A stretch of 57,305 nt of DNA from a virus. The notes under the pieces are model-generated. The model was not told the origin of the DNA and made no database searches. It saw only the letters and a list, made by a program, of their open reading frames with translations. The stretch is taken from the IMG/VR virus record IMGVR_UViG_3300025120_000059, positions 1 to 57,305 of that record; one strand, written 5' to 3'. Every line of letters begins with the position of its first letter. Position 1 is the stretch's first letter. Of this stretch, positions 36,209 to 52,459 are shown piece by piece. The position numbers and the translations under genes were made by a program.

Positions 36209-36497
36209 TAGCGTTCTCCGATGTTATAGTTTTAATAGCGAAGCTTCTTACTACTTTAGGTTCTAATCCAGCAAGCTCGCACGTTGCCTCAAAGTTTTCA
36301 CAGGTTACTCCAATAGAACAGAAGACCCATGCGCTTGCTTGATCACGATGCAGCACTGTCTCTAAACTTTCACTGGGTTCTTTAGGTTTGGATAAGTCTA
36401 ACAAAGCTTGAAGGATTATGGCAAGATGTAATGTCTTGTCTGAATCTTTCTCAGTTAGATCGTACAGTGTACCGAAGTCCGGTACTTCATTTGTCAT
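36174..36497 (-). CDS. hypothetical protein in the replication operon
   Basis: A 107-residue protein overlapping the upstream gene by 11 nt. It is helical: KTLHLAIILQALLDLSKP, then LHRDQASAWVFCSIGVTCENFEATCELAGL, which resembles a short DNA- or nucleotide-related helix bundle, and ends in VVRSFAIKTITSENANEIRRKI. No family assigned. The position between DUF3310 and the GIY-YIG gene is all that hints at function. Confidence 0.6.
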   Translation of the reverse strand: MTNEVPDFGTLYDLTEKDSDKTLHLAIILQALLDLSKPKEPSESLETVLHRDQASAWVFCSIGVTCENFEATCELAGLEPKVVRSFAIKTITSENANEIRRKINSFL

Positions 36498-37206
36498 CAG
36501 ACCCTATCCTTTCTATTTTTACTATGTCTTTATAAGGCTTATAAATACCATTTATAACTTTATATAAAGCACTGCTATCATACCCATCTATGTTTTTTAG
36601 CGTTTGGAATTCTTCAGTGTGACCATCTTTAAATGTTATAATATATGGTCCTTTAAAATTAGGATGTTTTTCTCCCGATTGAGCAGCACTCATGTTCGCA
36701 CGATGTTCAGCACTAAGTGTCTTGCCTGTATGAGCAGCACTTAACTTCGCACGAGTTTCAGCACTAAGTGTCTTGCCTATATTACCAGCACTTATCTTCG
36801 CACGGCTTTTAGCACTGTGAAACTCAGGAGCGATAAACTTTACAGCACCTAGCTGAGCATTGTAATACAGTCGCTCACCACAGGGCAGTAGTTCCGGTGA
36901 GAGTACATCATTGTCTGTCTGGAAATGTACCTCACCGCTTACCACACCACCTCTTGTTTTATAGTTACAGATAATCTCAAAGGTAAACTTATCTTTACCA
37001 AGACGCTTCATGTCTTCTTTGAGTGGCTTACATGATCCTGCGTACACTCTCCAGTTAGATTCTCTGTCACGTTTTCTTTTCTTATAAGTATGGTAGAACT
37101 TCCTACCAATATATTTCCTGCCACTGACAGTGTTTGTTATAAGGTAAACAAAACCATAGTATGTATCAGGGTCTACCTCGCCAACCCAATGATGTTTCTT
37201 GGACAC
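36487..37206 (-). CDS. GIY-YIG endonuclease with NUMOD3 repeats
   Basis: A 239-residue protein starting at GTG one base after the previous stop. Residues 12-110 carry the GIY-YIG fold: YGFVYLITNTVSGRKYIGRKF, NWRVYAGSCKPLKEDMKRLGKDKF. Residues 150-190 hold three NUMOD3-like DNA-binding repeats (KTLSAETRAKLSAA, KTLSAEHRANMSAA, each about 18 aa). It is probably a freestanding homing or DNA-processing endonuclease placed between exonuclease and DUF3310 genes. Confidence 0.85.
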   Translation of the reverse strand: MSKKHHWVGEVDPDTYYGFVYLITNTVSGRKYIGRKFYHTYKKRKRDRESNWRVYAGSCKPLKEDMKRLGKDKFTFEIICNYKTRGGVVSGEVHFQTDNDVLSPELLPCGERLYYNAQLGAVKFIAPEFHSAKSRAKISAGNIGKTLSAETRAKLSAAHTGKTLSAEHRANMSAAQSGEKHPNFKGPYIITFKDGHTEEFQTLKNIDGYDSSALYKVINGIYKPYKDIVKIERIGSDDK

Positions 37207-38680: not shown

Positions 38681-38710
38681 ATTATAGCACATCGTATATT
38701 GGGATGTCAA
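38681..38710 (-). promoter_or_regulatory. consensus sigma70 promoter
   Basis: Read on the - strand: TTGACA, an 18-nt spacer, TATAAT, with TGC before the -10 (extended -10). It lies just past the DNA polymerase stop and drives SSB and the genes below it. The leader (38591-38675) contains two small hairpins (GGGGA-TCAT-TCCCC at 38632-38645 and CTGC-GCTATT-GCAG at 38611-38624). Confidence 0.85.
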
Positions 38711-40823: not shown

Positions 40824-41286
40824 TTGTCATGTCCACTAAGTATGCATCTTCTACGGGAATGTGAAAGAATTTTTCTCCCTTTCTTATCTTATAGTTAGAG
40901 GCTTCTTTAACTTCACACTCTAACAATGTGTTACCATCTACGTGCCATGCCATAGTGCAGTCATGGTTGAAGACCACAAAAGTAAGTAGGTCATTGTAAC
41001 ATTCCTTCTTCCATTTGTCAAGAAGCCTTTGCTTACGATGTGGTATACGTAACTCTTTCCAACTGTCGGGCCACTCGTTACCCTTCCAAGAATACTTCAC
41101 CTCCACTTCATAGAGATGTCTTGGAAGGTCTGGACCTACAGTTGAAACAATATCAAAGTAAGTTGTTTCATTAGTATCTATATTAGTATGATCTTTATTT
41201 TCTAACCAAGATACCATAGCTTCTTTGGCTTCTCTGTCAGCTTTCTCATATAGATTACGATCAAACTTCTTTCTAACCTCACTCAT
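40813..41286 (-). CDS. possible second PD-(D/E)XK-fold protein
   Basis: A 157-residue protein. I place the start at 41286, which has GGAGG 6 nt upstream; in-frame ATGs at 41301 and 41292 do not. It reads TYFDIVSTVG (Asp) and LYEVEVKYSWKG (ExK), a nuclease-like core, followed by LRIPHRKQRLLDKWK and a hydrophobic FVVFNHDCTMAWHVD strand. It overlaps the primase gene by 8 nt. Such proteins occur beside phage replisome genes. Function not proven. Confidence 0.6.
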   Translation of the reverse strand: MSEVRKKFDRNLYEKADREAKEAMVSWLENKDHTNIDTNETTYFDIVSTVGPDLPRHLYEVEVKYSWKGNEWPDSWKELRIPHRKQRLLDKWKKECYNDLLTFVVFNHDCTMAWHVDGNTLLECEVKEASNYKIRKGEKFFHIPVEDAYLVDMTNDI

Positions 41287-42901
41287 TGTCATCCTCCACA
41301 AAGGGGTTGTCGATCTGTGTCATGCGTCCTGTCTCACCATCATAGTGAAGGTGACAAGCTATACCAGTGTCACCTGTGTACCTGTTCTTCAAGACACGGA
41401 TAGAGGTGGTATTAGCTTCGATAGGATCGTCTGCCTGTTGGTTACGCTCCAGTGCAATCACTGCATCAGACAGGTGGGCAATAGAAGCAGAGCCACGTAG
41501 GTGTGACAGGGTAACTTCACGGCCATTCTCATGCCCATTGTCACCTGATGGGCGACGTAGGTGGCTGACCAGTAGCAGGGCAATGCCTGTCTCCTCAACA
41601 AGAGAACGAAGCTTGGTCATCAGGATGTCGATAGACTTACGCTCATCGCCGTTGTCTTCCTGTCCTGATACAAGGATAGACAGGTGATCAAGGAAAATCC
41701 ACTTGCAGTCAAGAGCTTTTGCCATGTATCGGATGCGACTAAGTATCTCATCGTTCTCCATGCTGCCAAAGTGATCGAAGGCAAAGAACCTACCAGAGTC
41801 AATCGTCTTGGCTTGCCAATCATCCAACTGTTCCTGCGTGTACTGGTCACGTATCTCCTTAATGTACAGTCTAGCGTTAGCTTCCACACTCATAAGGTTG
41901 AAGGCAGTCTGCTTCGTGTTCTCTTCCATAGCAAGCACACCAATATTATCTTTGGTATTCTGCATAATATGATACATAAGCTCACGCATGATGCTGGACT
42001 TACCCATACCTGCACCAGAGGTGAACGTCACAAGCTCTCCTGTCCTGATGCCATAGGTCTTGTCGTTCATACCGGACCACGGGTAGGGACAAGTCTCGTT
42101 GTGTGTCTCATCGTACAGGCTACGGCCAAGGTCAGCAAGGTTGATAATACCTGCCGGTGTAAAGGTACGTGCGCTCCACCATGCCTGAGTAAACTTCTCA
42201 CGTTGACCTGTCTTCAGATACTCATTGGCATCCTTGAGTTCAAGGTCCATGATCTTACACTTGTTAGGCTCAAACAGTTTAGCAACAGCCTGTGCTGCCT
42301 CCTTGCCCTGCTTATCATTGTCAAAGCAGAGAACAATAGTATCGAACTTGTTAAGGTATTCAAGTGACTGCTGACAGTTCTTCACGGCAGACTGTGCGCC
42401 GTTCTTAATAGATACTGAAGGCCACTTCGATCCCATCAGTTCATAGGCACTCATGGCATCGATCTCACCCTCACAAACCGTGACAAACTTACCTGTCTGA
42501 CCAAAGATATTCTGACCAAACAAACCACACTCAGAAAGATTACCCTCAGACCAGAACTGTTTGTCACTGGTACGTCGGAACTTAGATGCAAGATGATTAC
42601 CATTCTTGTCGTAGTATTTGTACATGTGTTTATCTACAATGGTGCCACTCTTACTTACAGTGACGCCATACTTCTTACAGGTATCAAGAGTAATTTTTCT
42701 GTCAGCAATAGCTGAGAAGGTAAAAGATGAGGGATTTTCATTCTGCATTTTGATAACCTGAGTTGGTTGGGTTGGCATCTGTTCTCCATTTCTATAGGGC
42801 TTGGATTCGTCGCAGCTAAAACATTTAGTTCCCCACTCGTAGTATGCCAGTGCGTCTGACGAACCACAGTCGGGGCAGGGTTGGTGTGTTTTAAGTTCCA
42901 T
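41279..42901 (-). CDS. primase-helicase (T7 gp4-like)
   Basis: A 540-residue protein. N-terminal zinc-binding domain: CPDC (9-12) and CFSC (27-30). TOPRIM primase: FVTVCEGEIDAMSAYELMG and VLCFDNDKQG. Helicase of the DnaB/RecA type: Walker A TSGAGMGKSS, Walker B CKWIFLDHLSILV, and RSLVEETGIALLLVSHLRRP. It makes primers and unwinds the fork, working with the polymerase and SSB. The start at 42901 has GGAG 6 nt before it; an ATG at 42913 is also possible. A conserved hairpin lies immediately upstream. Confidence 0.95.
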   Translation of the reverse strand: MELKTHQPCPDCGSSDALAYYEWGTKCFSCDESKPYRNGEQMPTQPTQVIKMQNENPSSFTFSAIADRKITLDTCKKYGVTVSKSGTIVDKHMYKYYDKNGNHLASKFRRTSDKQFWSEGNLSECGLFGQNIFGQTGKFVTVCEGEIDAMSAYELMGSKWPSVSIKNGAQSAVKNCQQSLEYLNKFDTIVLCFDNDKQGKEAAQAVAKLFEPNKCKIMDLELKDANEYLKTGQREKFTQAWWSARTFTPAGIINLADLGRSLYDETHNETCPYPWSGMNDKTYGIRTGELVTFTSGAGMGKSSIMRELMYHIMQNTKDNIGVLAMEENTKQTAFNLMSVEANARLYIKEIRDQYTQEQLDDWQAKTIDSGRFFAFDHFGSMENDEILSRIRYMAKALDCKWIFLDHLSILVSGQEDNGDERKSIDILMTKLRSLVEETGIALLLVSHLRRPSGDNGHENGREVTLSHLRGSASIAHLSDAVIALERNQQADDPIEANTTSIRVLKNRYTGDTGIACHLHYDGETGRMTQIDNPFVEDDNE

Positions 42902-42914
42902 AAACTTCTCCATA

Positions 42915-42966
42915 TTAATTGAGCCTTAGTAGTTTCGTAGAAACTCTACTACTAAGACTCAATTAA
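42915..42966 (-). repeat. covarying hairpin element, copy 1 (upstream of primase-helicase)
   Basis: A 9-bp outer stem, one mismatch, and a second 9-bp stem (CTTAGTAGT/ACTACTAAG on the + strand) enclose an inner AGTTTC/GAAACT mini-hairpin with a 3-nt loop and an extra CTACT on one side. This is the same architecture as four other hairpins in the early region (47873, 49488, 50347, 50603), with different arm sequences. Confidence 0.9.
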
Positions 42967-42968
42967 GT

Positions 42969-43157
42969 TTACCATTTACCTTTACTGTTTTCCATGAGTT
43001 CCTTACATAACTCTTGTCGGTGTGCAGCTATATCCTTTTCTATTGATACCAGTGTCTCTATCTTATCAACCATCTCCATCTTACGCCACGGTGCTTTAAA
43101 ACATGTTTGTACATGTCCTCTTTCTTTTGGTTTGTATACTTCAACTAGAACTTCCAT
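42969..43157 (-). CDS. small hypothetical protein (62 aa)
   Basis: A 62-residue protein started at 43157, four bases after the stop of the upstream small gene, with AAGGGA about 9 nt before. An ORF extending further upstream in this frame would run through the neighbouring gene. The product has a charged N-terminus (VEVYKPKERGHVQTCF) and a coiled-coil-like C-terminus (MVDKIETLVSIEKDIAAHRQEL). No family recognised. Confidence 0.6.
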   Translation of the reverse strand: MEVLVEVYKPKERGHVQTCFKAPWRKMEMVDKIETLVSIEKDIAAHRQELCKELMENSKGKW

Positions 43158-43161
43158 AGCT

Positions 43162-43320
43162 CTATCCCTTCTTGATTTCATAAACTCTTTCTGTAGGTAA
43201 TCCGGTAACATGTTGAGTGAGTTGTTCACGGTTTTGAAGTTCTTCTTCTGCCTCCTTCTTAGTAGTGAAAGATTTAATCTCCACATCTCCCCACTCCTTT
43301 CTTAATACTAACTTCCACAT
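43162..43320 (-). CDS. small hypothetical protein (52 aa)
   Basis: A 52-residue frame starting inside the last codons of thyX (13-nt overlap) and ending 4 nt before the next gene. It begins MWKLVLRKEWGDVEIKSFTTKKEAEEEL, a beta-hairpin followed by a helix in the style of small phage accessory proteins, and finishes RVYEIKKG. The tight fit between its neighbours supports it over the longer frame that overlaps it. Confidence 0.6.
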   Translation of the reverse strand: MWKLVLRKEWGDVEIKSFTTKKEAEEELQNREQLTQHVTGLPTERVYEIKKG

Positions 43321-43976
43321 AACGCACTCCATGATTCAGGAAATAACTTTTCCATATGATCTCCGATTGGTTTAACCACGCTACTGGTTTCAAGTTGTGC
43401 GTCTTTGCTGCACCGTAGTTTGTATATTCTTGCGAAGGCCATCAGTGTACCAGACCAGTACCACTCCGTCAACATGCTTTGTGGCAGCACAGTTCGTGCT
43501 TGTTCAGGACATACACCTATATCTAACATAGCTTTATAAGCATCAAGACAGTGGCGTGTTGCATCTATGTACATATGATCTACTATGTTCTGTGATGGTG
43601 TGGCATCTTCTGATGATCCCTGCTTTACATTTTCTGCACTCTGTCTCCAGTAATCAGGCGACCAGAACTCTGGTTCTGTTTTAATATACCTACGGCTAAC
43701 CTCATTCCAGACAAGACCAACTTGATGTTTCATAAGTTGTCGTGCTACGAAGATGGGTGCCTTGATCCTGAACTGTGCAGAGCCATGACCAAACGGTGTC
43801 CAGTGATTGTGCTTGGCAAGATACTTTATTAGTTTAATATCTTTATCTTGAAGCACTCCCTCAGTCGGACCACCAAAAGGTATTGTTTCCCAATCAGATT
43901 CTTTATCAAAGCTAACCCGTGCTGCATTAACAACGCTGAGATCGTTACCCATGTGATCAATCAATTCAACATTCAT
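43308..43976 (-). CDS. thyX: flavin-dependent thymidylate synthase
   Basis: A 222-residue protein. I start at 43976 (MNVELIDHMG), which has GGAGG upstream. It carries ARVSFDK near the N-terminus, FGHGSAQFRIKAPIFVARQLMKHQVGLVWNEVSRRY (the ThyX signature R-----K-------NE-SRRY, here with RQLMKHQ before it) and CPEQARTVLPQSMLTEWYWSG. It makes dTMP from dUMP with FAD, NADPH and methylene-THF. With ribonucleotide reductase it feeds DNA synthesis. Confidence 0.95.
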   Translation of the reverse strand: MNVELIDHMGNDLSVVNAARVSFDKESDWETIPFGGPTEGVLQDKDIKLIKYLAKHNHWTPFGHGSAQFRIKAPIFVARQLMKHQVGLVWNEVSRRYIKTEPEFWSPDYWRQSAENVKQGSSEDATPSQNIVDHMYIDATRHCLDAYKAMLDIGVCPEQARTVLPQSMLTEWYWSGTLMAFARIYKLRCSKDAQLETSSVVKPIGDHMEKLFPESWSALCGS

Positions 43977-44151
43977 CAAAGGTATCCTCCCACAGTTCAT
44001 GCACAAAAGAAACTTTATCTTCCATAATATTATCTGCTTCTTTCTTTGCTAACTTCTTAGCCTCTTTGTAGACATAACCTTCATCAACATATTCTCTGAT
44101 CAGATCACGCATTAAACCACTGCGTTCTTTCTGCCATAAATTCTTAGCCAT
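43966..44151 (-). CDS. small helical protein (61 aa)
   Basis: A 61-residue, charged and probably all-helical protein (KERSGLMRDLIREYVDEGYVYKEAKKLAKKEADNI), overlapping thyX by 11 nt at its end. Only the gene order (next to thyX and small early genes) is informative. No family recognised. Confidence 0.6.
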   Translation of the reverse strand: MAKNLWQKERSGLMRDLIREYVDEGYVYKEAKKLAKKEADNIMEDKVSFVHELWEDTFDEC

Positions 44152-44152
44152 G

Positions 44153-44323
44153 TTAATCTAAATCCTCTAAGTCTTTAAAAAATTCTTCTCTATCTTTTTG
44201 ACTTGTGACATCGTACCCTGACTTCTTCATCAACAACCACAACTCTTCGCCGTATCCTAAAGATTTTCTTAAAGTATTTTCTTTTTCTAAACGGTGCCAA
44301 TCAAGATCGTATATTTTTGTCAT
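44153..44323 (-). CDS. small hypothetical protein (56 aa)
   Basis: A 56-residue frame that starts inside the end of the upstream gene (23-nt overlap) and stops 1 nt before the next start. It reads MTKIYDLDWHRLEKENTLRK, then GYGEELWLLMKKSGYDVTSQKDREEF, a compact helical acidic protein. It fills the gap exactly, which supports it. No family known. Confidence 0.6.
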   Translation of the reverse strand: MTKIYDLDWHRLEKENTLRKSLGYGEELWLLMKKSGYDVTSQKDREEFFKDLEDLD

Positions 44324-44486
44324 CGTATTCTACCCACCCAGTATTAGCGTTTGTTTGTTTTTCTTTTGCTAGTTCTTTTCTTAGGTCATCAATTAATTTT
44401 TCCTGTTCTTTTATTCTAGCTTTTAACATCTTAACATTAGTATTTAATATGTCCCAAGCGGACTTCAAGTTAGTGTCTTCTGTCAT
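44301..44486 (-). CDS. small coiled-coil protein (61 aa)
   Basis: A 61-residue protein, with residues 10-47 a strong heptad coiled coil (NTNVKMLKARIKEQEKLIDDLRKELAKE). The GGAG site 6 nt before its ATG is also the spacer of a consensus promoter, whose TATAAT directly abuts the ATG. It overlaps the next gene by 23 nt. Function unknown. Confidence 0.6.
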   Translation of the reverse strand: MTEDTNLKSAWDILNTNVKMLKARIKEQEKLIDDLRKELAKEKQTNANTGWVEYDDKNIRS

Positions 44487-44515
44487 ATTATACTCCTGTC
44501 ACCGGCTGTTGTCAA
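44487..44515 (-). promoter_or_regulatory. consensus sigma70 promoter overlapping a ribosome site
   Basis: Read on the - strand: TTGACA, 17-nt spacer, TATAAT. The -10 ends exactly where the 44486 gene's ATG begins, so transcription from it would start a few bases inside that gene, while longer upstream transcripts would use the GGAG in the spacer to translate it. It would drive thyX and the replisome genes below. Confidence 0.8.
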
Positions 44516-44990
44516 TATAAAATACATGTTTATCTATTTGCCCCACAAGAGAGAAGCGATCATCCAATGCCCAGTAAGGTGTGACATAAGAGGCATGATA
44601 GTGGGTTGCTCCTTCAGTGTGGAGTAGCACAACGCCCTGTAGAGCAAGCTCTGCTGCGCTGACTGCTTCATTATAAGCATCTACATTTGCAATAGTTTCT
44701 GGCTTCCCGTCACACCAGTATGAGAAGTGACACTTGTTTCTGACGGGCTTACCCTTCCATGTTCTGCCCTGACGGACAACATCACAGATATTATCTGGAT
44801 AATGTTCTGACTGCACTCGTTGCAATACCACGTTTGCTACAGCAAGTTGTGCAACAAAAGATTCTGAACGTGCTTCAAAGTATACTGCCTCTGCTAGACA
44901 TGAAAGGTTGTCTGCCCTTACCTGAGATGCAAAGACAGAAAGGATAATAAAGAATATAAAGTTAAGTATAATAATCTTTAAGTAGTTCAT
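44499..44990 (-). CDS. SleB-type cell wall hydrolase with signal peptide
   Basis: A 163-residue protein. Residues 1-26 are a clear signal peptide (short basic start, IIILNFIFFIILSVFA core, then SQVRADN). The rest matches the Hydrolase_2/SleB fold: CLAEAVYFEARSESFVAQLAVANVVLQRV with the catalytic Glu in the YFEAR stretch, CDVVRQG--W, CHFSYWCDG, GATHYHASYVTPYW. Such enzymes cut peptidoglycan. The signal peptide would export it without a holin. It lies in the early region, far from the main endolysin. Confidence 0.85.
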   Translation of the reverse strand: MNYLKIIILNFIFFIILSVFASQVRADNLSCLAEAVYFEARSESFVAQLAVANVVLQRVQSEHYPDNICDVVRQGRTWKGKPVRNKCHFSYWCDGKPETIANVDAYNEAVSAAELALQGVVLLHTEGATHYHASYVTPYWALDDRFSLVGQIDKHVFYIDNSR

Positions 44991-45184
44991 TGCAATCTTT
45001 CAATTTTTATATTAAAAGGAAATCCACCAGACAATTCTTTTATACCATGACACATAAGATATGCGGCGGCATCTTCATATGATGGAAAAGTATACACCTC
45101 TTCTTCATCTTCGTTTATCATTAAGTCAATGTCATCTACATCCTTAACTGTATCTTCTTGAGCTTGGGTTATTATATAACTCAT
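44987..45184 (-). CDS. small hypothetical protein (65 aa)
   Basis: A 65-residue acidic protein: MSYIITQAQEDTVKDVDDIDLMINEDEEEVYTFP, then SYEDAAAYLMCHGIKELSGG and FNIKIERL, suggesting a small alpha/beta unit. It is chained by ATGA with the gene upstream, and overlaps the SleB start by 4 nt. No family known. Confidence 0.6.
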   Translation of the reverse strand: MSYIITQAQEDTVKDVDDIDLMINEDEEEVYTFPSYEDAAAYLMCHGIKELSGGFPFNIKIERLQ

Positions 45185-45324
45185 CGACCCTGCCCTCTAT
45201 ACTTTTTAAAGCTACGTCTCTTATGTTTATTGTTGGGACGGGAAAGAGTTCCCGCCCCGATTGATGTACGTTTCTTGATCCGATGTTGTGTTGGATCGTA
45301 CTTACCATCAGTCTTCTTTACCAT
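45181..45324 (-). CDS. very small basic protein (47 aa)
   Basis: A 47-residue frame. Its ATG lies within the stop region of the DUF932 gene (TAATG) and its TGA overlaps the next ATG. It is Arg/Lys-rich (HRIKKRTSIGAGTLSRP, KHKRRSFKKYRGQGR), reminiscent of ribosomal-protein-like or nucleic-acid-binding tails. The perfect chaining supports translation; the function is unknown. Confidence 0.6.
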   Translation of the reverse strand: MVKKTDGKYDPTQHRIKKRTSIGAGTLSRPNNKHKRRSFKKYRGQGR

Positions 45325-46220
45325 TAGACAACCTCCAATTCTTTCCAGTGTGGTGATGCCAACATCTTACGTACTTTATCTTCACGTAGTACACGGGTGT
45401 TAGCTTTAGGTACATGGGTAGACCATGCTGTAGCTGCCTGATAAGCAGTCCACAGTGTGCCTTTAGTCTGCTGACTATAGCCTTCGTAGTGACCACGGCC
45501 TATGATGTGACGGTTCTCTTCGTCAAAGGTTTTCATCAGGTTGGATAGCATCACCTTGTTAGGAACCTGTGCTTTGCTTACGTTGTCCATACGCTTTGCA
45601 AGTGTGTTACTGAACAGTGAGATCGCAGTGTCACGATCAACCGTTGTATTATACCACACTTTCATCTGATCCATACCATCGTTGGCAATGAAGTCAGATG
45701 CAGCCCTGATCTTACTGGCAAAGCTGGTGACAGAGAAGTTCTTTGAGTGGCGACCATACACATAGGCCAGCTTGTTACCATCAACAAGAGTATTGTAACA
45801 GGCTGATCGGAAGTAACCCATCATTCCATTGTTAGCCCATGTTCTGTTGTGGCTGGTACGAAACTTGAACTGAGGTGTAACCAAGTCATTCCTTCCATCA
45901 ATGGTAGTAGCTTCAGCGTTGAACTTAGCAGTAAGTTCTAGCTGTTCGCCATGTCCAATCACATTGGTTTGAAACTCAGCACCATCAAGATCAATACCCG
46001 ACATAGCGATAGACTGTTCAAGATTTTCTACAAGATCAAGATACTGTACTGGCTCGTAGGCTTCCGACACAATAGCAATAGGTTCTCCGCTATCAGTTCG
46101 ACGCAGACCTACGCCCAATGACGGATGAATCTCTCCTCCATCAACCCCACCAAAGTTAGGGTTGAACGCACCAAGAGAAAACTTTTCTACGTTAAAGTTA
46201 AGTACATCATGGTTAAACAT
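45324..46220 (-). CDS. DUF932 (phage/plasmid-like) protein
   Basis: A 298-residue protein with the features of DUF932: SGEPIAIVSEAYEPVQYLDLVENLEQ (residues 45-70), GEQLELTAKF, VTPQFKFRTSHNRTWA, and an SFASKIRAASDFIA segment. These proteins are common in phages and plasmids and often lie in early accessory regions; some are near anti-defence genes, but no activity is established. It is the largest protein of this early block. Confidence 0.85.
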   Translation of the reverse strand: MFNHDVLNFNVEKFSLGAFNPNFGGVDGGEIHPSLGVGLRRTDSGEPIAIVSEAYEPVQYLDLVENLEQSIAMSGIDLDGAEFQTNVIGHGEQLELTAKFNAEATTIDGRNDLVTPQFKFRTSHNRTWANNGMMGYFRSACYNTLVDGNKLAYVYGRHSKNFSVTSFASKIRAASDFIANDGMDQMKVWYNTTVDRDTAISLFSNTLAKRMDNVSKAQVPNKVMLSNLMKTFDEENRHIIGRGHYEGYSQQTKGTLWTAYQAATAWSTHVPKANTRVLREDKVRKMLASPHWKELEVV

Positions 46221-46374
46221 TTTGGTTATCTTTCATCTTTAGGTTGAAACGTATTGAGTGTAGTTGCTGAATACATTGTGACATCTTGTCACTGTCTTCC
46301 AGTTTTACTGAGCCATTCAACTGAAGCTGGCTTAGTACTTCAAGAGTTTCTTCTATGGCTTCAAGCGGTGTCAT
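46213..46374 (-). CDS. small hypothetical protein (53 aa)
   Basis: A 53-residue protein starting at 46374, inside the last codons of the upstream gene (14-nt overlap); an ATG further upstream at 46422 is less likely because it would overlap more. It is helical and amphipathic (MTPLEAIEETLEVLSQLQLNG, MSQCIQQLHSIRFNLK). No family known. Confidence 0.55.
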   Translation of the reverse strand: MTPLEAIEETLEVLSQLQLNGSVKLEDSDKMSQCIQQLHSIRFNLKMKDNQNV

Positions 46375-46579
46375 CGTTCCAGCTTTCGTAACCGTCTGAA
46401 AGGGAACGCATTTCGTGTTCAATCCATCCGTTTAGTTCTTGGATATTAATATCTTCTGGCTTTGAATCGTATGCAATTAGCTCCATGTATTCTTCTACCA
46501 TTGGGCGACACCACTCATCGCCACCATAACGCAGAAACTTTTCAACATCTTCGATGTCTTTAAACTCAGGAATATTCAT
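46361..46579 (-). CDS. small acidic hypothetical protein (72 aa)
   Basis: A 72-residue acidic protein (MNIPEFKDIEDVEKFLRYGGDEWCRPMVEEYMELIAYDSKPEDINIQ in outline: two helices with several Trp and Glu), ending SWNDDTA. Such acidic small proteins are common in phage early regions and sometimes act by mimicking DNA, but nothing specific shows that here. Confidence 0.55.
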   Translation of the reverse strand: MNIPEFKDIEDVEKFLRYGGDEWCRPMVEEYMELIAYDSKPEDINIQELNGWIEHEMRSLSDGYESWNDDTA

Positions 46580-46580
46580 G

Positions 46581-46802
46581 TCATTCTCCTCTAAGTTGTA
46601 TATCTTTTAGTGTGTACTCGGCTAGTATACCATTAAATGTATTAGAGATCAAGCACAATCCATTCAAAGCAGACGGTGCATTTGTCATGGTAAAAGTCAT
46701 AGCTGCCATCAGAGATTCCTCTGCAATGTTTAGATCGTCAGTGTCTTCTTCTTGTAGTAAACTAAGTTCATTATAAACTTGTTTAAATACTTTCATATTC
46801 AT
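46581..46802 (-). CDS. small hypothetical protein (73 aa)
   Basis: A 73-residue protein with GGAG 7 nt before the ATG at 46802. It has an acidic helix (YNELSLLQEEDTDDLNIAEESLM), a hydrophobic centre (AAMTFTMTNAPSALNGLCLISNTFNGI), and ends KDIQLRGE. No family recognised. Confidence 0.55.
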   Translation of the reverse strand: MNMKVFKQVYNELSLLQEEDTDDLNIAEESLMAAMTFTMTNAPSALNGLCLISNTFNGILAEYTLKDIQLRGE

Positions 46803-46822
46803 ATGGTAACTCCTCTAGTATG

Positions 46823-46948
46823 TCATGCCATGCGTTCATTATCTTTATCCTTTGGTTTTGGTGGTGGCTTGCCGCCGAAATAAGTTTCTTGTATCCACTT
46901 ATAATGCTCTGGCGTATTAGGTTTAGGCGGCTTTTCTTTCTCTGGCAT
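46823..46948 (-). CDS. very small Pro/Lys-rich protein (41 aa)
   Basis: A 41-residue frame with GGAG 5 nt before the ATG at 46948. It reads MPEKEKPPKPNTPEHYKWIQETYFGGKPPPKPK and ends in DNERMA, with the central HYKWIQETYFGG the only structured-looking part. It fills the gap between two genes. No family known. Confidence 0.55.
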   Translation of the reverse strand: MPEKEKPPKPNTPEHYKWIQETYFGGKPPPKPKDKDNERMA

Positions 46949-46950
46949 AC

Positions 46951-47133
46951 TCACTCCATGTCTACTGTGGGATCACCCCAGCTTACTTCTATGTTTTGTT
47001 TTAATTTAAACTGATTACATCCCTCGACATAAGCTTGATATTGTTTATCACAATCTTCTTTATTATACCACCACTTAGGCATTACACTGTAAGACAGTTG
47101 TTGAAGTTCGTCCCAATCTTTTTTAGATAACAT
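46951..47133 (-). CDS. small hypothetical protein (60 aa)
   Basis: A 60-residue protein overlapping the previous gene by 11 nt and separated from the next by 2 nt. It is Trp/Tyr-rich (LSYSVMPKWWYNKEDCDKQYQAY) with an acidic end. No family known. Confidence 0.55.
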   Translation of the reverse strand: MLSKKDWDELQQLSYSVMPKWWYNKEDCDKQYQAYVEGCNQFKLKQNIEVSWGDPTVDME

Positions 47134-47338
47134 AGCTTTGCTCCTTCTTCAGCCATTCAAGTTGCACCATAGCTATATCATAAGCCTGTGCTGGTGTCAA
47201 ATCAGTAAGAGAATAGATGGTGTACTTTAGACCAGACTTCTCGCCTGTAGTCTTAATCTTTTTACGTAGGTTTGTGTCCCATGTAATCTTCCAGTTATCA
47301 CCACCAAGTTCTATCTCTACGAAGTCAACTGTCTTCAT
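47123..47338 (-). CDS. small hypothetical protein (71 aa)
   Basis: A 71-residue protein. The ATG at 47338 has GGAGG 5 nt before it and is preferred over a far upstream ATG in the same frame. It looks like a small alpha/beta domain (MKTVDFVEIELGGDNWKITWDT, YTIYSLTDLTPAQAYDIAMVQLEWLKK). No family known. Confidence 0.6.
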   Translation of the reverse strand: MKTVDFVEIELGGDNWKITWDTNLRKKIKTTGEKSGLKYTIYSLTDLTPAQAYDIAMVQLEWLKKEQSYVI

Positions 47339-47525
47339 TTTGTACCTCCAATTCACTTTGTAAGTTGAATAATATTTCGTGCATTTCGTCAAACAATTTC
47401 TCTGATTTATCCCACTGCCCAATGCGAGCCATACTAAATGCGATCTCCATACCCATTCTTGCAAAAGAAAGTTTAGCAGATGTTGGTTTATCTTTAATGC
47501 TTTTTAATACATCGTCACGAGTCAT
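47325..47525 (-). CDS. small helical hypothetical protein (66 aa)
   Basis: A 66-residue helical protein (MTRDDVLKSIKDKPTSAKLSFARMGMEIAF, then KSEKLFDEMHEILFNLQSEL). It overlaps both neighbours slightly. No family known. Confidence 0.55.
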   Translation of the reverse strand: MTRDDVLKSIKDKPTSAKLSFARMGMEIAFSMARIGQWDKSEKLFDEMHEILFNLQSELEVQNEDS

Positions 47526-47688
47526 ACTCTACCTCCATGTCAGGGACAAAGCCTTTGTCTGTGAATAAAGTTAGCTCAAAGTCTTGGTCAGTTTTATCAG
47601 TGACAGTTACCGTTATGGTTGTGAAGCTTTCGTAGTCTTCACGTTTCACTTTGATGTTGTCTACGCTATGTATTCTGAGTCCGTTCAT
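47515..47688 (-). CDS. small hypothetical protein (57 aa)
   Basis: A 57-residue protein. The start at 47688 overlaps the previous TAA (TAATG) and has GGAG 8 nt before; an ATG at 47706 is also in frame but lies inside the previous gene. It is beta-rich (MNGLRIHSVDNIKVKR, SFTTITVTVTDKTDQDFELTLF). No family known. Confidence 0.55.
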   Translation of the reverse strand: MNGLRIHSVDNIKVKREDYESFTTITVTVTDKTDQDFELTLFTDKGFVPDMEVEYDS

Positions 47689-47837
47689 TAGCTCATCTCC
47701 ATCCATTCTGATTCAGTTCTACGTGCAGCTTCTGCGTAGGTTTCATTGCAGCCTTTAGGCCACCCATCCAACTCCAGATACTCCACCCATAAGTCAAAGA
47801 TATTTTCTTTGAGCATTTCGTTTTCATGGTTACTCAT
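47688..47837 (-). CDS. very small hypothetical protein (49 aa)
   Basis: A 49-residue frame with GGAG 6 nt before the ATG at 47837. It is an acidic helical protein: MSNHENEMLKENIFDLWVEYLELDGWPKG, then a NETYAEAARRTESEW helix. It is the first gene after hairpin copy 2, which lies 36 nt upstream. No family known. Confidence 0.6.
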   Translation of the reverse strand: MSNHENEMLKENIFDLWVEYLELDGWPKGCNETYAEAARRTESEWMEMS

Positions 47838-47872
47838 TTCAATCTCCAAAAAACGTCTTAGTAATGGTATAA

Positions 47873-47926
47873 TTAATAGTCGTTATGTAGTATCGTAAGA
47901 TACTTCTACTACATAACTCCTATTAA
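47873..47926 (-). repeat. covarying hairpin element, copy 2
   Basis: Arms TTAATAG/TATTAA-type (7 bp with a GC closing pair), a 2x2 interior loop, then GTTATGTAGT/ACTACATAAC (10 bp) enclose the inner AGTATC-GTAA-GATACT mini-hairpin and a one-sided TCT/CTACT bulge (+ strand). It lies between the 47928 and 47837 genes. Same architecture as the other copies. Confidence 0.9.
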
Positions 47927-47927
47927 G

Positions 47928-48596
47928 TCAAGCGGCAATCGCTGATGCCTTCTTCTTACTTGTACCATGTGCAGGAAAGCCTACCACTACATTCCTATCC
48001 CACTTCTCACATAGCATACATGATGCACATGATACTTCATCTTTGTATGTTGCGGGACATACCACAACCTTTCTACCTTTAGGTGTAACAGTGTTAGTTG
48101 TCTGATCAATCGGCAACACAGTTGCAACTGGAGCTATGTTAAGATCGCATAGCTTGTCAGCATGTTCAAGATTGTTGGCAGACACATTAACAGTAAAGCC
48201 TAAGTGGTTCATAATGTTGACAGTTATGGCATTCTGGAAGTTGTCCAGTACGTCATAGTGTGTGTATGTAAACCCACGCTTGCCCTTATTAGCTTTGGCA
48301 AGCTCAATACACTTCTCATTGTCCAGCTTCTCCATGTCACCGGGCAAGTCGCCAGCTTGATTGTGCCGCCACTTGCTACCAGTGGGCAAATCTTTGATCT
48401 TGTCAATGAACGTAGCCCAATCGTCGCCACGTTCTTTCCGGGTGACTTTGTCCCAATGTAGTTTCAATGGGCCACTGTCGGCATAGCAGCCATTCGATTT
48501 GAAGGGACACGAAGTGGGACATGTTGTCGCAGTGCTAGTAGTGACTGCCATCTTTCCCACTTTGACGTTCTTTGATTTAGGCGTAATGTGAAACAT
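47928..48596 (-). CDS. Cys-rich phage protein (GP88/DUF7227-like)
   Basis: A 222-residue protein with GGAGG before its ATG. It has TCPTSCPFKSNGCYADSGP near residue 25, several more Cys near the C-terminus (CPATYKDEVSCASCMLCEKW), and WRHNQAGDLPGD in the middle. The four-Cys start is like that of GP88/DUF7227 phage proteins, which look built to hold an Fe-S cluster or zinc. Its function is not known. It lies in an early gene block. Confidence 0.7.
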   Translation of the reverse strand: MFHITPKSKNVKVGKMAVTTSTATTCPTSCPFKSNGCYADSGPLKLHWDKVTRKERGDDWATFIDKIKDLPTGSKWRHNQAGDLPGDMEKLDNEKCIELAKANKGKRGFTYTHYDVLDNFQNAITVNIMNHLGFTVNVSANNLEHADKLCDLNIAPVATVLPIDQTTNTVTPKGRKVVVCPATYKDEVSCASCMLCEKWDRNVVVGFPAHGTSKKKASAIAA

Positions 48597-48744
48597 TTAT
48601 TTCCTCCAAAAAATCCTCAGTTTCAAAGTAACACACATCGGCGTCGGTAGTAAAGGCATTTTTATTTTTAATGCCTTCCGCAATCCGTCCATTGAGTTCG
48701 GTGCGTTGTTCGACGGTCAGTTCCTCAACATAGTTGATAGTCAT
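48577..48744 (-). CDS. small hypothetical protein (55 aa)
   Basis: A 55-residue acidic frame overlapping the next gene by 20 nt. It reads MTINYVEELTVEQRTELNGRIAEGIKNKNAF, then TDADVCYFETEDFLEE, a small helical protein. Its last codons also carry the ribosome site of the Cys-rich gene. The upstream ribosome site is weak. No family known. Confidence 0.55.
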   Translation of the reverse strand: MTINYVEELTVEQRTELNGRIAEGIKNKNAFTTDADVCYFETEDFLEEINVSHYA

Positions 48745-48805
48745 AGATTTTTACCATAGTTTGCACATAAGATAGGAACCTCTGACATTCCTATCTCTGT
48801 ATAAA

Positions 48806-49081
48806 CTAAGCCGCTTCGGATACCAACTGTGCTATGGCCCTTGAGGTATTTTCTCCAGATTTTAGCACTTTGATAAGCTGCCGTGCAATGACACGCTGAT
48901 GGTCACGCATCCGGCCACCGTCTACCGACTTGCGATGCCGTGCCAGCTTTGCTACAGCCTTGTCAAACCTACCCCAGTTACCAATGGTAACATTTTCTTC
49001 AATAAGCTTTTCCAGCTTGGGATCGGCATAGAGGTTATACTTACCACGGCGTTCGGTGTACTGAATTGCAGGAGTTGTCAT
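48806..49081 (-). CDS. basic hypothetical protein (91 aa)
   Basis: A 91-residue protein, basic and helical (LIEENVTIGNWGRFDKAVAKLARHRKSVDGG, RMRDHQRVIARQLIKVLKSG). A hairpin (49101-49146) lies 20 nt before its start, and another (AGATAGGAA/TTCCTATCT, 48770-48796) just after its stop. The basic helices could bind nucleic acid. No family assigned. Confidence 0.6.
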   Translation of the reverse strand: MTTPAIQYTERRGKYNLYADPKLEKLIEENVTIGNWGRFDKAVAKLARHRKSVDGGRMRDHQRVIARQLIKVLKSGENTSRAIAQLVSEAA

Positions 49082-49100
49082 AGTATATATCTTTCTATTT

Positions 49101-49146
49101 AGGTTAGGAATAATGCAAGGCTTATCGTGAGGTGCCTTGCTAACCT
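49101..49146 (-). promoter_or_regulatory. two-stem leader hairpin of a different type
   Basis: An outer AGGTTA/TAACCT stem and an inner 7-bp GCAAGGC/GCCTTGC stem with a 12-nt loop. This hairpin lacks the bulge-and-mini-hairpin core of the repeated family but sits in the same place, just upstream of a - strand gene. It may be a processing or regulatory structure. Confidence 0.6.
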
Positions 49147-49160
49147 CTGTTAAGCTACGC

Positions 49161-49451
49161 TTATGCCATTGTCATATCGACAAATTCAGCGGCATCTTCT
49201 TTGATAGCTTTAGCTATGATATTATTAGACCGTTTGTGAGCAGCTTCCAGCTTTTCTTCTACAGCCTTCGGCTTAGTGCTGGTAATTGCTTCAGCTTCGG
49301 GCAGCTTGTCACCATTGCGGATGACTTTGAAGTTCCCGTTCGGGTGTACAACCCTAATAGGAGTGCCGGAGTCGGCAGCTTTGCTGAACAAGTCTTTGCC
49401 TTTATCAAGTGCTACCCACTTGTCAGCTACGAAAGTTTCCATTGTTGCCAT
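49161..49451 (-). CDS. hypothetical protein (96 aa), first after hairpin copy 3
   Basis: A 96-residue protein: a beta-rich start (MATMETFVADKWVALDKGKDLFSKAADSGTPIRVVHPNG), a short linker, and a helical basic end (LEAAHKRSNNIIAKAIKEDA). GGAG lies about 8 nt before the start. Hairpin copy 3 is 37 nt upstream. No family known. Confidence 0.6.
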   Translation of the reverse strand: MATMETFVADKWVALDKGKDLFSKAADSGTPIRVVHPNGNFKVIRNGDKLPEAEAITSTKPKAVEEKLEAAHKRSNNIIAKAIKEDAAEFVDMTMA

Positions 49452-49487
49452 GATATATCTCCAATCAGTTGGCGGTTTCTACTGTAT

Positions 49488-49540
49488 CTAATTGATCCTT
49501 TACAGTATCGTAAGATACTCTACTGTAAAGTATCTATTAG
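49488..49540 (-). repeat. covarying hairpin element, copy 3
   Basis: Arms CTAAT/ATTAG, then GAT/ATC with mismatches, then CTTTACAGT/ACTGTAAAG (9 bp) enclose the same core (AGTATC-GTAA-GATACT plus CTACT, + strand). A TTGACA on the - strand lies just upstream (about 49556-49561), but the -10 that would match it is poor. Confidence 0.9.
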
Positions 49541-49541
49541 G

Positions 49542-49706
49542 TTAGTCGCATCCCTCTGTCAAGAACGCACACAATGCTATAAATGCGAATGGCAATGCAA
49601 AGAGGATTGGGAAAGTGTCCCAACCTCTAAAGCAAAACCCATACATTCCGACAAGAACTGCCGGAAACATCAACAGCAAAGCTGTGTTTCTAATTTTCTC
49701 AAACAT
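49542..49706 (-). CDS. small membrane protein (54 aa, two spans)
   Basis: A 54-residue protein starting at 49706, one base after the upstream stop. It has two hydrophobic helices (TALLLMFPAVLVGMYGF and FPILFALPFAFIALCAF) joined by a short loop with a Trp-Asp turn, and a charged N-terminus. It could be an early membrane-acting or superinfection protein; nothing specific supports this. Confidence 0.6.
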   Translation of the reverse strand: MFEKIRNTALLLMFPAVLVGMYGFCFRGWDTFPILFALPFAFIALCAFLTEGCD

Positions 49707-49707
49707 A

Positions 49708-49878
49708 TTAGTCCCCATTTCTCTGTCTGAAGATGCGATCTTTGAGCTTGCTTGCATGAATCTGAAATTGTTCTTCCTCTTGGAAGAATGAACATATTGT
49801 CAGATGGTCTTGATCCTGATTTACAGGGTGATTTTGCAACTCAACCAAGTTATACTTGTCAAGCATTTCATTTAACAT
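49708..49878 (-). CDS. small acidic hypothetical protein (56 aa)
   Basis: A 56-residue protein. The start at 49878 (MLNEMLDKYNLVELQ) has GGAG 6 nt upstream; a TTG further up is not needed. It is acidic and helical with an Arg-rich end (DRIFRQRNGD). The GGAG and start are part of a 52-nt segment duplicated near 50129. No family known. Confidence 0.55.
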   Translation of the reverse strand: MLNEMLDKYNLVELQNHPVNQDQDHLTICSFFQEEEQFQIHASKLKDRIFRQRNGD

Positions 49879-49882
49879 ATTA

Positions 49883-49934
49883 ATCTCCAATTAAAGATTT
49901 ATAATTGTTTCAAGCGTAGCTTCGTCTTCATCCA
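49883..49934 (-). repeat. 52-nt direct repeat (partial copy of the 3' end of the 50137 gene)
   Basis: These 52 bases match 50129-50180 with only two differences. In the upstream copy they are the last 14 codons, stop and following ribosome site of the 50137 gene. Here they encode an isolated 14-codon frame (MDEDEATLETIINL, 49891-49935) directly after the 49928 gene. It looks like the scar of a duplication or insertion. Confidence 0.85.
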
Positions 49935-50122
49935 TTATATTTATCCATTTCTGTTGTATTCTTTACAATTTCAGCAAGATCAATAATATCCTTGGCTGTA
50001 TATACAAAAGCCCAATCTTCTCCAAGAAGATCATCGGCTATTTCATTGGCAACAAAAATATCACCGCAATTACCCAATGGGTGACATACCCCCAAGTAAC
50101 AAAAAGCATAGTAGCTATCCAT
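49928..50122 (-). CDS. small hypothetical protein (64 aa)
   Basis: A 64-residue protein with GGAG 8 nt before its ATG. It starts MDSYYAFCYLGVCHPLGNCGDIF, three Cys near the start, then EIADDLLGEDWAFVYTAKDIIDLAEIV. It sits between the two copies of a 52-nt direct repeat. No family known. Confidence 0.55.
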   Translation of the reverse strand: MDSYYAFCYLGVCHPLGNCGDIFVANEIADDLLGEDWAFVYTAKDIIDLAEIVKNTTEMDKYNG

Positions 50123-50136
50123 TAGCTCATCTCCGA

Positions 50137-50307
50137 TTAAAGATTTATAATTGTTTCAAGCGTAGCTTCGTCCTCATCCAGTGTGGCAATCCACCAACCA
50201 TGTTGGTCATGCAGGTCAATGGCTCCGCCATTCACAGATGTGTGAACTCGGAAAGCTCCATCAAGATGCTGGTCAATCTCCGATTGTAGGAATGAAATGT
50301 TCGACAT
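50137..50307 (-). CDS. small hypothetical protein (56 aa), first - strand gene
   Basis: A 56-residue protein with GGAG 6 nt before its ATG at 50307. It is the first gene of the - strand early array, 40 nt after hairpin copy 4. It reads MSNISFLQSEIDQHLDGAFRVHTSVNGG, then IDLHDQHGWWIATLDEDE, a beta-sheet-like small domain with an acidic end. No family known. Confidence 0.6.
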   Translation of the reverse strand: MSNISFLQSEIDQHLDGAFRVHTSVNGGAIDLHDQHGWWIATLDEDEATLETIINL

Positions 50308-50346
50308 GGTAATCTCCGATTAGGTTGGTTGGTTGGGTTATAATAT

Positions 50347-50399
50347 CTAATTAACCCTCTATAGTATCGTAAGATACTCTACTATAGAGGTTTAATTAG
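50347..50399 (-). repeat. covarying hairpin element, copy 4
   Basis: The cleanest copy: CTAATTAA/TTAATTAG (8 bp), one mismatch, then CCTCTATAGT/ACTATAGAGG (10 bp), inner AGTATC-GTAA-GATACT and the CTACT bulge (+ strand). It begins at about the expected transcription start of the - strand promoter at 50403-50432 and ends 40 nt before the first gene. Confidence 0.92.
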
Positions 50400-50402
50400 G
50401 TT

Positions 50403-50432
50403 AATCTAGCTTATCGTCATTCGGTTTGTCAA
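50403..50432 (-). promoter_or_regulatory. candidate early promoter (- strand)
   Basis: Read on the - strand: TTGACA (perfect), 18-nt spacer, TAGATT (4 of 6). Transcription would start close to hairpin copy 4 and run into the early gene array. The spacing equals that of the promoters at 33.9 and 38.7 kb. It is the best promoter I see for the early operon. Confidence 0.6.
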
Positions 50433-50440
50433 CCCTCATC

Positions 50441-50698
50441 AACCACTATTGTGGTTCATCGTAGGCATGACAGACCTGCATTGGTTGCATAGCAACTAAA
50501 AGCTACGCTTTGTCAAGGGGTTAGCTAGTTTTCTGTTGGTTACTACGAAGTAGTAGAAGCTGACTACAAGACATCCTTTGGATGAATTTGCCAAGACTAC
50601 TACCAATTACTCTCCTCCGTAGTAACATTCTGTTCCTACTACGGAGAGATAATTGGGTTCCCATAGCAAAGGCTTTGTTGGCAGCATAGCTGCTATGC
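50441..50698. other. array of short hairpins in the divergent control region
   Basis: In the 610-nt gene-free gap (50308-50917), short perfect palindromes with 3-4 nt loops follow one another: AACCAC-TATT-GTGGTT (50441), GTTGC-ATA-GCAAC (50484), AAAGC-TAC-GCTTT (50499), TACTAC-GAA-GTAGTA (50541), CATCC-TTT-GGATG (50572), then a fifth large hairpin (50603) and GCATAG-CTG-CTATGC (50684), followed by G7, TGG, A8 and TA repeats. No gene fits here. It may be an origin, a structured RNA or a regulatory region. Confidence 0.7.
50603..50656 (-). repeat. covarying hairpin element, copy 5
   Basis: CCAATTA/TAATTGG (7 bp), an interior loop, then CTCCGTAGT/ACTACGGAG (9 bp) enclose an inner AACA-TTC-TGTT mini-hairpin and a one-sided CCT spacer before ACT (+ strand). 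The architecture is as in copies 1-4 but with a diverged core. It lies in the control region, not next to a gene start. Confidence 0.75.
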
Positions 50699-50882
50699 GG
50701 GGGGGTGGAAAAAAAACCTGCACATGTATATATATATAAACAACCACTCTCATATACAGACAAAAATCTACGGACTACTCATCAAAATAAAAATAAGGTA
50801 TCCATACTGTGACATAAATACAACAAAGCGGTACTAATTAGTTCCTTATTAGTATTATTTTATTATTTTATTAGTATCTCTA

Positions 50883-50911
50883 TTGTATATCTCTATAGTA
50901 TAGTGTATAAT
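50883..50911 (+). promoter_or_regulatory. sigma70 promoter for the packaging/capsid operon
   Basis: TTGTAT, 17-nt spacer, TATAAT, with TG in the extended -10 area. The first transcribed base would fall at about 50918, exactly the A of the large terminase ATG, so the message may have no 5' leader. Confidence 0.7.
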
Positions 50912-50917
50912 AGTACT

Positions 50918-52459
50918 ATGGAGTATTTAGATAGTAACTATATAGAACAGTATGTCAACCTTGAAGCTTTGTTAAAGCAGAATGTTGATACTCAATGTAA
51001 TGATGACTTCTTGTCTTTTGTAAGACTGATGGCACCTTCGATTGTGTCTGACTTCAGGATGGGTCGTCACATTGAAGTTATCTCAGATAAGCTACAACAG
51101 GTACAGGATGGTCAAATAAAAAGACTGATGGTCTTTCTTCCACCACGTTCATCAAAGTCTGTTGTCTGTTCCAAGTTGTTTCCTGCATGGTATCTGGGCA
51201 GGAACCCTGAACATGAGATACTAAGTATATCGCACAGTGACCAACTGGCAAGTGACTTTGGCAGATCAGTCAGGGACATAGTAAACACTGAGGAATACCA
51301 GAAAGTATTCAGGGGTGTCTCCCTTAGAAGTGATGTCAGGGCTGCTGGTAAGTGGAAGACAAACCATAATGGTACATACTATGCTGCCGGTGTCAGATCA
51401 CAGATTGCTGGACGTGGCGCACATGTAGCTATACTTGATGATGCTATGTCTGAAGAAGATGCGATCTCCAGTGCAGGTAGAAGGTTTATTAAAGAGTGGT
51501 ATCCTGCGGGACTCAGAACACGTATCATGCCAGACGGTGCCATTGTCATAATCAATACAAGGTATCACTATGATGATCTCTGTGGCTGGCTACTGAAGCA
51601 GCAGGAGAATATGTCTGACTATGAAACTATACCGTGGGAGGTTGTTAAGATACCTGCATGGTTAGATGAAGAAGCAGCAGAGATGCTTGATCTTCCAGTA
51701 GGAGGTAGCTACTTTCCTGAATGGAAGTCTGACAGGATACTCAGGATGGATGAGAGTGAGATCAAGGCAAGTAACGGAAGCCGGTACTGGAACTCTCTTT
51801 ACATGCAAGACCCCACACCTGAAGAGGGTGGTCTTATAAAGAAAAGGTGGATACAGGATTGGGATCAGGAAGACCCACCCAACTGTGAATTTGTAATACA
51901 AACTCTTGATACTGCCTTCTCCACCAGTACCACCGCTGACTACAGTGTCATACAAACATGGGGTATATTCTACATGTATGACCAAGATGAGAACGGCAGG
52001 GAGGACTTTGCAGCCCACCTGATACTTCTTGGTAACATCAAGGGCCGCTTTGAATATCCAGAACTTCGACGGCTGGCGCAGAAATTATACAATGAACATA
52101 GACCTGATGTCTGCATGGTGGAGAAGAAGGCATCCGGTCAATCGCTTATACAGGATATGCGACGGGCGGGACTCCCGGTAATGGAATATAATCCTGACAG
52201 GGATAAGGTATCCAGAGTTTACGCAGCCAGCCCCATCATGGAAGCAGGTCGCCTGTGGATACCTAAGAGTAAGAAGTGGGCAGATGATCTCATTGAAGAA
52301 CTTATACGGTTTCCCAATGCAGCCCATGATGACCAAGTGGATGCCCTGACAATGGCAGTACACTACATGAAGGAATCATGGCACCTCTCGCATCCCGAAG
52401 ACCCTGAAGAAGAAGAGGACAGGGTAAGCAAGGGCAGAGCAACATACTGGAATGTCTAA
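50918..52459 (+). CDS. terL: terminase large subunit
   Basis: A 513-residue protein. The start at 50918 (MEYLDSNYIEQY) is preferred to a GTG at 50903 that overlaps the -10 box. ATPase: Walker A-like LPPRSSKSVV (about residue 75), Walker B HVAILDDAMS. Nuclease: TLDTAFSTSTTADYS, MVEKKASGQSLIQDM, AHDDQVDALTMAVHYM. It pumps DNA into the head and cuts it, using the small subunit encoded at 29.2 kb. No ribosome site is seen before the ATG. Confidence 0.95.
   Translation: MEYLDSNYIEQYVNLEALLKQNVDTQCNDDFLSFVRLMAPSIVSDFRMGRHIEVISDKLQQVQDGQIKRLMVFLPPRSSKSVVCSKLFPAWYLGRNPEHEILSISHSDQLASDFGRSVRDIVNTEEYQKVFRGVSLRSDVRAAGKWKTNHNGTYYAAGVRSQIAGRGAHVAILDDAMSEEDAISSAGRRFIKEWYPAGLRTRIMPDGAIVIINTRYHYDDLCGWLLKQQENMSDYETIPWEVVKIPAWLDEEAAEMLDLPVGGSYFPEWKSDRILRMDESEIKASNGSRYWNSLYMQDPTPEEGGLIKKRWIQDWDQEDPPNCEFVIQTLDTAFSTSTTADYSVIQTWGIFYMYDQDENGREDFAAHLILLGNIKGRFEYPELRRLAQKLYNEHRPDVCMVEKKASGQSLIQDMRRAGLPVMEYNPDRDKVSRVYAASPIMEAGRLWIPKSKKWADDLIEELIRFPNAAHDDQVDALTMAVHYMKESWHLSHPEDPEEEEDRVSKGRATYWNV

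Follow-up and report, generated by a model that had tools for sequence, protein, structure and literature searches.

The window, G000, a 57,305-bp virus record from IMG/VR (IMGVR_UViG_3300025120_000059; "window" denotes this whole stretch of DNA), has a marine podovirus-like genome and carries a family of five intergenic hairpins, which we analyze here. Its genes form two divergent transcription blocks that meet near 50.4–50.9 kb (gene calls in the metagenomic genomes were made with a simple script). The rightward block contains the terminase and portal genes, and the leftward block contains small early genes and replication genes. All five hairpins sit in the left block, on the minus strand, which is the coding strand there.

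Hairpin 1 (42915..42966, minus strand, as are all hairpins and the genes behind them) lies between the stop codon of a 105-aa gene (42969–43286) and the Shine-Dalgarno sequence (SD) and ATG (42901) of a DNA primase/helicase gene (41279..42901; 540 aa from an SD-preceded ATG; PHROG 239, E 4.8e-185). Hairpin 2 (47873..47926) lies between the stop of a DUF7227 gene (47928–48596) and the SD and ATG (47837) of a 49-aa early gene (47688..47837), and hairpin 3 (49488..49540) between the stop of a 71-aa gene (49542–49757) and the SD and ATG (49451) of a 96-aa early gene (49161..49451). Hairpin 4 (50347..50399) is found 39 nt ahead of the ATG (50307) of a 56-aa early gene (50137..50307). None of these three early genes has an assigned function. 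Hairpin 5 (50603..50656), with no convincing gene directly behind it, falls in what is probably the leader of the leftward early message. The first-pass annotation of this DNA had placed four copies upstream of minus-strand start codons; this agrees with the distances that we measure (about 13, 35, 36, and 39 nt), save that the start behind hairpin 1 is the ATG at 42901, preceded by the SD GGAG, and not one at 42913.

Folded as minus-strand RNA, the five copies reach −19.6 to −25.5 kcal/mol (z = −6.8 to −8.6), and none of 200 shuffled sequences was as stable. Together with the covariance model described below, these folds and shuffles bear out the coordinates, the arm pairing, and the shared shape that had been proposed for the five hairpins.

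We scanned 2.9 million viral contigs in IMG/VR for the exact 20-base apical core GTATCGTAAGATACTCTACT that hairpins 3 and 4 share. The core was present in 59 stretches, many of them with 2–4 copies, and each copy folds inside its own complementary arms, though the search required the core alone. Thus, the proposal that arms change and yet pair extends well beyond the window: the 59 distinct hairpins fall into 34 arm clusters, and their seven innermost arm pairs are nearly perfect. Across 41 distinct sequences, 90.2% of pair cells are paired, compared to 69.9% after shuffling; 188 pair cells are changed on both sides (53.6 in shuffled alignments), and the covariation score is 0.551 (0.163 shuffled). 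Shifting the partner by one column reduced pairing to 29–42%. Stem changes between close copies comprise 80 compensated doubles, 18 held by G.U, and 57 that break or restore a pair, in an alignment that was fitted to the structure and hence is biased towards it. The overall comparison of G.U with A.C was not significant when stem ends were included (24:22 by cluster); the asymmetry is confined to the inner 16 pairs (15:2), where 14 of the 15 G.U pairs occur at one position.

A covariance model, R1, was built from 41 distinct hairpins, nearly all of them from contigs other than the window; the training set includes the window's own hairpin 3, and hairpin 4 has identical sisters. R1 recovers all five window copies on the minus strand (80.1, 70.2, 62.3, 53.3, and 22.2 bits, hairpin 4 scoring highest), including copies whose apex departs from the search core, and the plus-strand mirror images score lower (37.5, 29.7, 28.2, 23.5, and 16.5). 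The E-values are rough, and exact-core matches were the source of the model. R1 also detects many more copies with different apices in the fetched loci. The only separate plus-strand candidate in the window is a weak match near the terminase start (50878–50936; 18.1 bits, E 0.15) and is probably due to chance. A simple descriptor, 7-nt arms around AGTAG...ACT, gave 49 matches in 15 genomes and contigs. Of seven permuted motifs, six gave 0, 4, 0, 0, 0, and 1 matches; the other, GTAGA, gave 34 from a shifted-register overlap with the real motif.

The hairpins share a common plan. The lower stem is AU-rich and ~8 bp long, and a weak position joins it to an upper stem of 7–10 bp of largely free sequence; above these come a G.A internal loop and an apical mini-stem of 2–3 bp with a pyrimidine-rich loop. 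In many copies the weak position, which falls at about pair 8 at the junction of the lower and upper stems, is occupied by an A.G mismatch or a G.U pair and not by A.C. The first-pass annotation had described a one-sided bulge (AGTAG/CTACT) as the shared feature and as the expected site of cleavage. For the main core, however, the favored register pairs AGUA with UACU and places above them a symmetric GA/GA internal loop (tandem G.A) and a GUA-UCU-UAC cap, at −13.7 kcal/mol compared to −8.6 kcal/mol for the bulged form. In general form, the favored mini-stem is GU(A)/(U)AC, closed by a UCU(U) loop. We therefore reject the bulge, 5 kcal/mol less stable, as a conserved feature; in these energy calculations it appears as one register of a slippery sequence, and cleavage there finds no support, this register being the less stable one; the conserved feature is the G.A loop near the apex. 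Nor does the apex resemble a kink-turn, in which a three-nucleotide one-sided bulge precedes tandem G.A pairs, as most copies have a symmetric GA/GA loop.

In the large majority of 112 distinct hairpins, this loop is GA/GA or a near purine variant (GAA/GA, AGA/GAA, GAA/GAA, AA/GA, GGA/GA), a proportion inflated by the many sequences picked by exact core. Copies identified by position alone carry related purine-rich loops (GGA/GTA in L180, GTA/GTA in L213, GTA/GA in L164, AA/GA in G012, and ATA/GTA in G017). The mini-stem above the loop varies among the 112, as had been noted earlier (GUA/UAC, GU/AC, AC/GU, UU/AA). Within the window, hairpins 3 and 4 have the exact family core, and hairpin 4 also occurs in L011, L026, L038, L049, and L054. 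Hairpin 2 has one additional A in its apical loop (GAA/GA). The apex of hairpin 1 reads AGU-AGA/GAA-GU-UUCU-AC, and its arms recur unchanged in 14 further contigs fetched for their primase. Hairpin 5, with an orthologue in G009, has the most divergent apex of the five, GGAACAGAAUGU. The apex is much more conserved than the stems and differs between subclades; the core itself is near-fixed across the clade, and a search that loosened it at four bases brought in only two more loci. Tandem G.A exists on the mRNA strand only (the other strand reads TC/TC) and therefore points to that strand, as does the occurrence of A.G or G.U, not A.C, at the junction.

The placement of the hairpins is also constrained. 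An open reading frame with SD and ATG begins within 60 nt of 41 of 66 hairpins on the core strand and of 0 of 66 on the opposite strand. In a single clade of marine podoviruses with genomes of ~56 kb, all 63 comparable hairpins are on the early/replication strand, opposite to that of the terminase. Most span from the upstream stop codon (at it or a few nucleotides off) to 10–42 nt ahead of the next SD-ATG, within an overall range of hairpin-to-ATG distances of 10 to about 92 nt. The 10 nt past the stem contain a mean of 3.0 U, with TTTTT in 1 of 52. G001, G011, and G014 each have a copy that separates the polymerase stop from a promoter-like sequence. The window itself has a strong promoter-like sequence (TTGACA, 18 nt, TATAAT; 38681–38710, minus strand) right behind the DNA polymerase gene, and several sister genomes have comparable sequences at this site, preceded by a hairpin in those same three genomes.

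Apart from two (L063 and L064), the loci fetched by a core all encode proteins of one phage clade, whose genomes and contigs are syntenic with the window, with terminases 72–95% identical where present. The nearest cultured phages are distant (HTVC103P-type pelagiphages, polymerase 47%; HTVC027P, terminase 41%). A blastn search with hairpin 4 found no copy in cultured phages, and R1 found none in the scanned parts of HTVC115P, HTVC103P, HTVC027P, CRP-901, CHOED, Aeromonas 1233, and Slicky01, nor in T7. The exact core occurs in 0 GTDB genomes. No Rfam 15 family reached its gathering cut-off for the hairpins (best Spy392987, 24.1 bits versus 47), the only match above cut-off in the window being a tRNA outside them, and literature searches for the same element found nothing. 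Ten clade records encode no RNase III, in a search for which control genomes were positive; a search of the same records for a T7-type RNA polymerase gave no match, and its control was equally without a match. Three cultured phages with primases 44–47% identical to that of the window, Aeromonas phage 1233 (L132), Pseudoalteromonas phage Slicky01 (L133), and Vibrio phage CHOED (L134), have intergenic hairpin sets of their own followed by SD-ATG, with different apices: CCTAGG palindromes in Aeromonas 1233 and CHOED, and TTTAGTC-CTTAA-GACT in Slicky01.

Comparison of one site across relatives reveals how individual copies behave. Upstream of the primase, hairpins with unrelated arms occur in the window's group, in G001/G011, in G005/G012, and in G017; unrelated but paired arms are also found in contigs fetched only for their primase (e.g., L164, L180, and L213), and several other relatives have no hairpin there. 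Among contigs with a primase about 91–99% identical to that of the window, the hairpin 1 site is filled in 15 of 23 and empty in 8. Therefore, copies come and go as units, single copies are dispensable, and those that are present keep pairing. The first-pass annotation had held that relatives lacking the element or arms losing their pairing would speak against it; sisters can indeed be without a hairpin at a given site, but the hairpins that are present stay paired. Filled and empty forms of the hairpin 1 site (window 42899–42971; L139–L142, L148, L150, L151, L153, and L157) share flanks and do not represent a clean insertion, about 15 nt being replaced. Hairpins with identical arms stand at different genes within one genome in G001 (22520, 27857, and 32286) and G006 (19660 and 32475), which suggests, from sequence identity, recent intra-genome copying before arm divergence.

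Covariation, unrelated but paired arms at orthologous sites, and fixed strand and place make it near certain that a structure is selected on the coding-strand RNA, as the first-pass annotation had argued. Because the sequence changes while the shape is kept, the folded RNA itself has a role.

Several known systems resemble this family in part. We folded the T7 RNase III sites from NC_001604 at the positions that we take to be those of R0.3 to R18.5, and 8 of 11 fold clearly there. Like the window family, they are intercistronic two-stem hairpins with a break in the middle that recur several times per genome in polycistronic phage mRNA, each in the gap separating a stop codon from the SD-ATG that follows. 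The T7 sites, however, keep their upper-stem sequence (AAGGUC...GGCCUU) and a mid-stem internal loop on the 3′ side, whereas the upper stems here are free and the conserved loop is symmetric, G.A, and near the apex. The family is thus not a member of the T7 sites by sequence or loop, and by analogy of placement it may work like them. REP/BIME elements of enterobacteria are also intercistronic imperfect palindromes, able to stabilize upstream mRNA, and are conserved in sequence along their arms; the hairpins described here are conserved at the apex only, and their copies lie in a phage operon on one strand. T4-type PeSL cassettes combine a promoter with a stem-loop that has a terminator-like loop. 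Such repeated intergenic stem-loops come and go among related phages, as ours do, and three family copies precede a promoter-like sequence, but most have neither promoter nor U tract. The cassettes are cited in PMC5931544. The nearest described repeats in place and number are the ESAS of cluster K mycobacteriophages, inverted repeats just upstream of gene starts, several per genome, with a subclade-specific consensus (PMC3203893). Where the arms of an ESAS depart from the consensus, the changes do not support base pairing, and the preferred reading of the authors is that ESAS are DNA-binding sites (PMC3203893). Whereas ESAS have non-covarying arms of one consensus followed by a 13-bp SAS, the arms of the window family covary strongly and have no common consensus.

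The reading that we favor, at about even chances, is that the hairpin is an intercistronic mRNA element marking points at which the early polycistronic message is cleaved or has its ends protected, in the manner of a T7 RNase III site. It would form in the leftward early mRNA between the stop codon of one gene and the SD of the next, and would be used by a factor specific for its structure, either the RNase III of the host or an RNA-binding protein that reads the G.A-loop apex. The hairpin would then mark a boundary at which the long message is cut or exonucleases come to a halt, and single early cistrons would thereby be stabilized and translated independently, as in T7. Counting in its favor are the covariation, the separate arms of each copy, the bias in strand and place, the GA/GA apex on the mRNA strand, the T7-like placement, and the absence of a U tract. 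The structure, its strand, its place, and its distribution are observed; from them we infer cutting or end protection and the kind of factor involved. An RNase III or 5′-stabilizer role had already been the leading idea of the first-pass annotation, and the location does match T7 RNase III sites, but with no such gene in the phages any RNase III would be that of the host. That missing gene weighs against the boundary-mark reading, as do an invariant apex that RNase III alone should not need, the absence of single copies between contigs with primases 92–99% identical to that of the window, the variable distance to the ATG, and the three copies that stand ahead of a promoter-like sequence instead of an SD. 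Since the conserved apex exceeds the needs of RNase III alone, the main rival is that the hairpins are operators of a phage RNA regulon, on whose G.A-loop apex a phage- or host-encoded protein would repress or activate translation of the gene behind, as the MS2 coat protein does. An apex conserved far beyond the stems and differing between subclades, and several copies per genome adjoining the SD of early genes, are what such a regulon would leave. We nevertheless regard it as rather unlikely, given the 10 to about 92 nt between hairpin and ATG, the copies preceding promoter-like sequences, the copy in a leader with no gene behind, and the lack of an identified candidate protein.

Less probable still is that the hairpins are passive stabilizers of 3′ or 5′ ends, blocking exonucleases without cutting or a specific partner, as REP elements do: they are highly stable for their length and mostly start at or near the upstream stop codon, yet a passive barrier needs no invariant apex, and the core is near-fixed across the clade. 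The presence or absence of a copy at one site among close relatives, and identical copies repeated in one genome, resemble the gain of a mobile unit and might suggest a DNA-level element (an operator palindrome, a replication or packaging site, or a mobile insertion) with no RNA role. This is very unlikely. A DNA site recognized by its sequence cannot lie in stems whose arms are free, the hairpins keep one strand and orientation with respect to the genes, and only on the mRNA strand would the GA/GA apex and the G.U/A.G position be meaningful; strand bias and free arms likewise disfavor a DNA palindrome, origin, or operator. Transcription terminators or attenuators between early genes, which strong stem-loops at gene ends within an operon would fit, are the least probable. 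The stems are followed by few U residues, so the G+C-rich stem plus U tract of an intrinsic terminator is not what we find; no terminator-like site surrounds hairpins 4 and 5, and an operon interrupted by several full stops would be silenced, most of its downstream genes having no promoter ahead of them.

We suggest, tentatively, that the family could represent phage mRNA elements of a new class, built from free stems topped by a G.A-loop apex and located between early cistrons, where a dedicated host or phage factor would cut or mark the message. If so, it would amount to a lineage-specific post-transcriptional code, and the differently capped hairpins of the CHOED, Aeromonas 1233, and Slicky01 lineages would do the same job. 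Beyond T7 and T4, phage early operons have few known post-transcriptional signals, and the present family is a well-supported structured RNA missing from Rfam, in a marine phage clade for which we found no cultured member. Because the G.A-loop apex is near-fixed while the stems are free, a specific reader is predicted, which makes it possible to test what processes or regulates the early mRNA of phages in marine bacteria. The family also shows that a covariation test should come before any description of intergenic inverted repeats in phages as DNA operators.

Two further features were noted in the replication block of the window, both on the minus strand: a tRNA gene at 33971–34044, and a GIY-YIG homing-endonuclease-like gene with NUMOD3 at 36487–37206.

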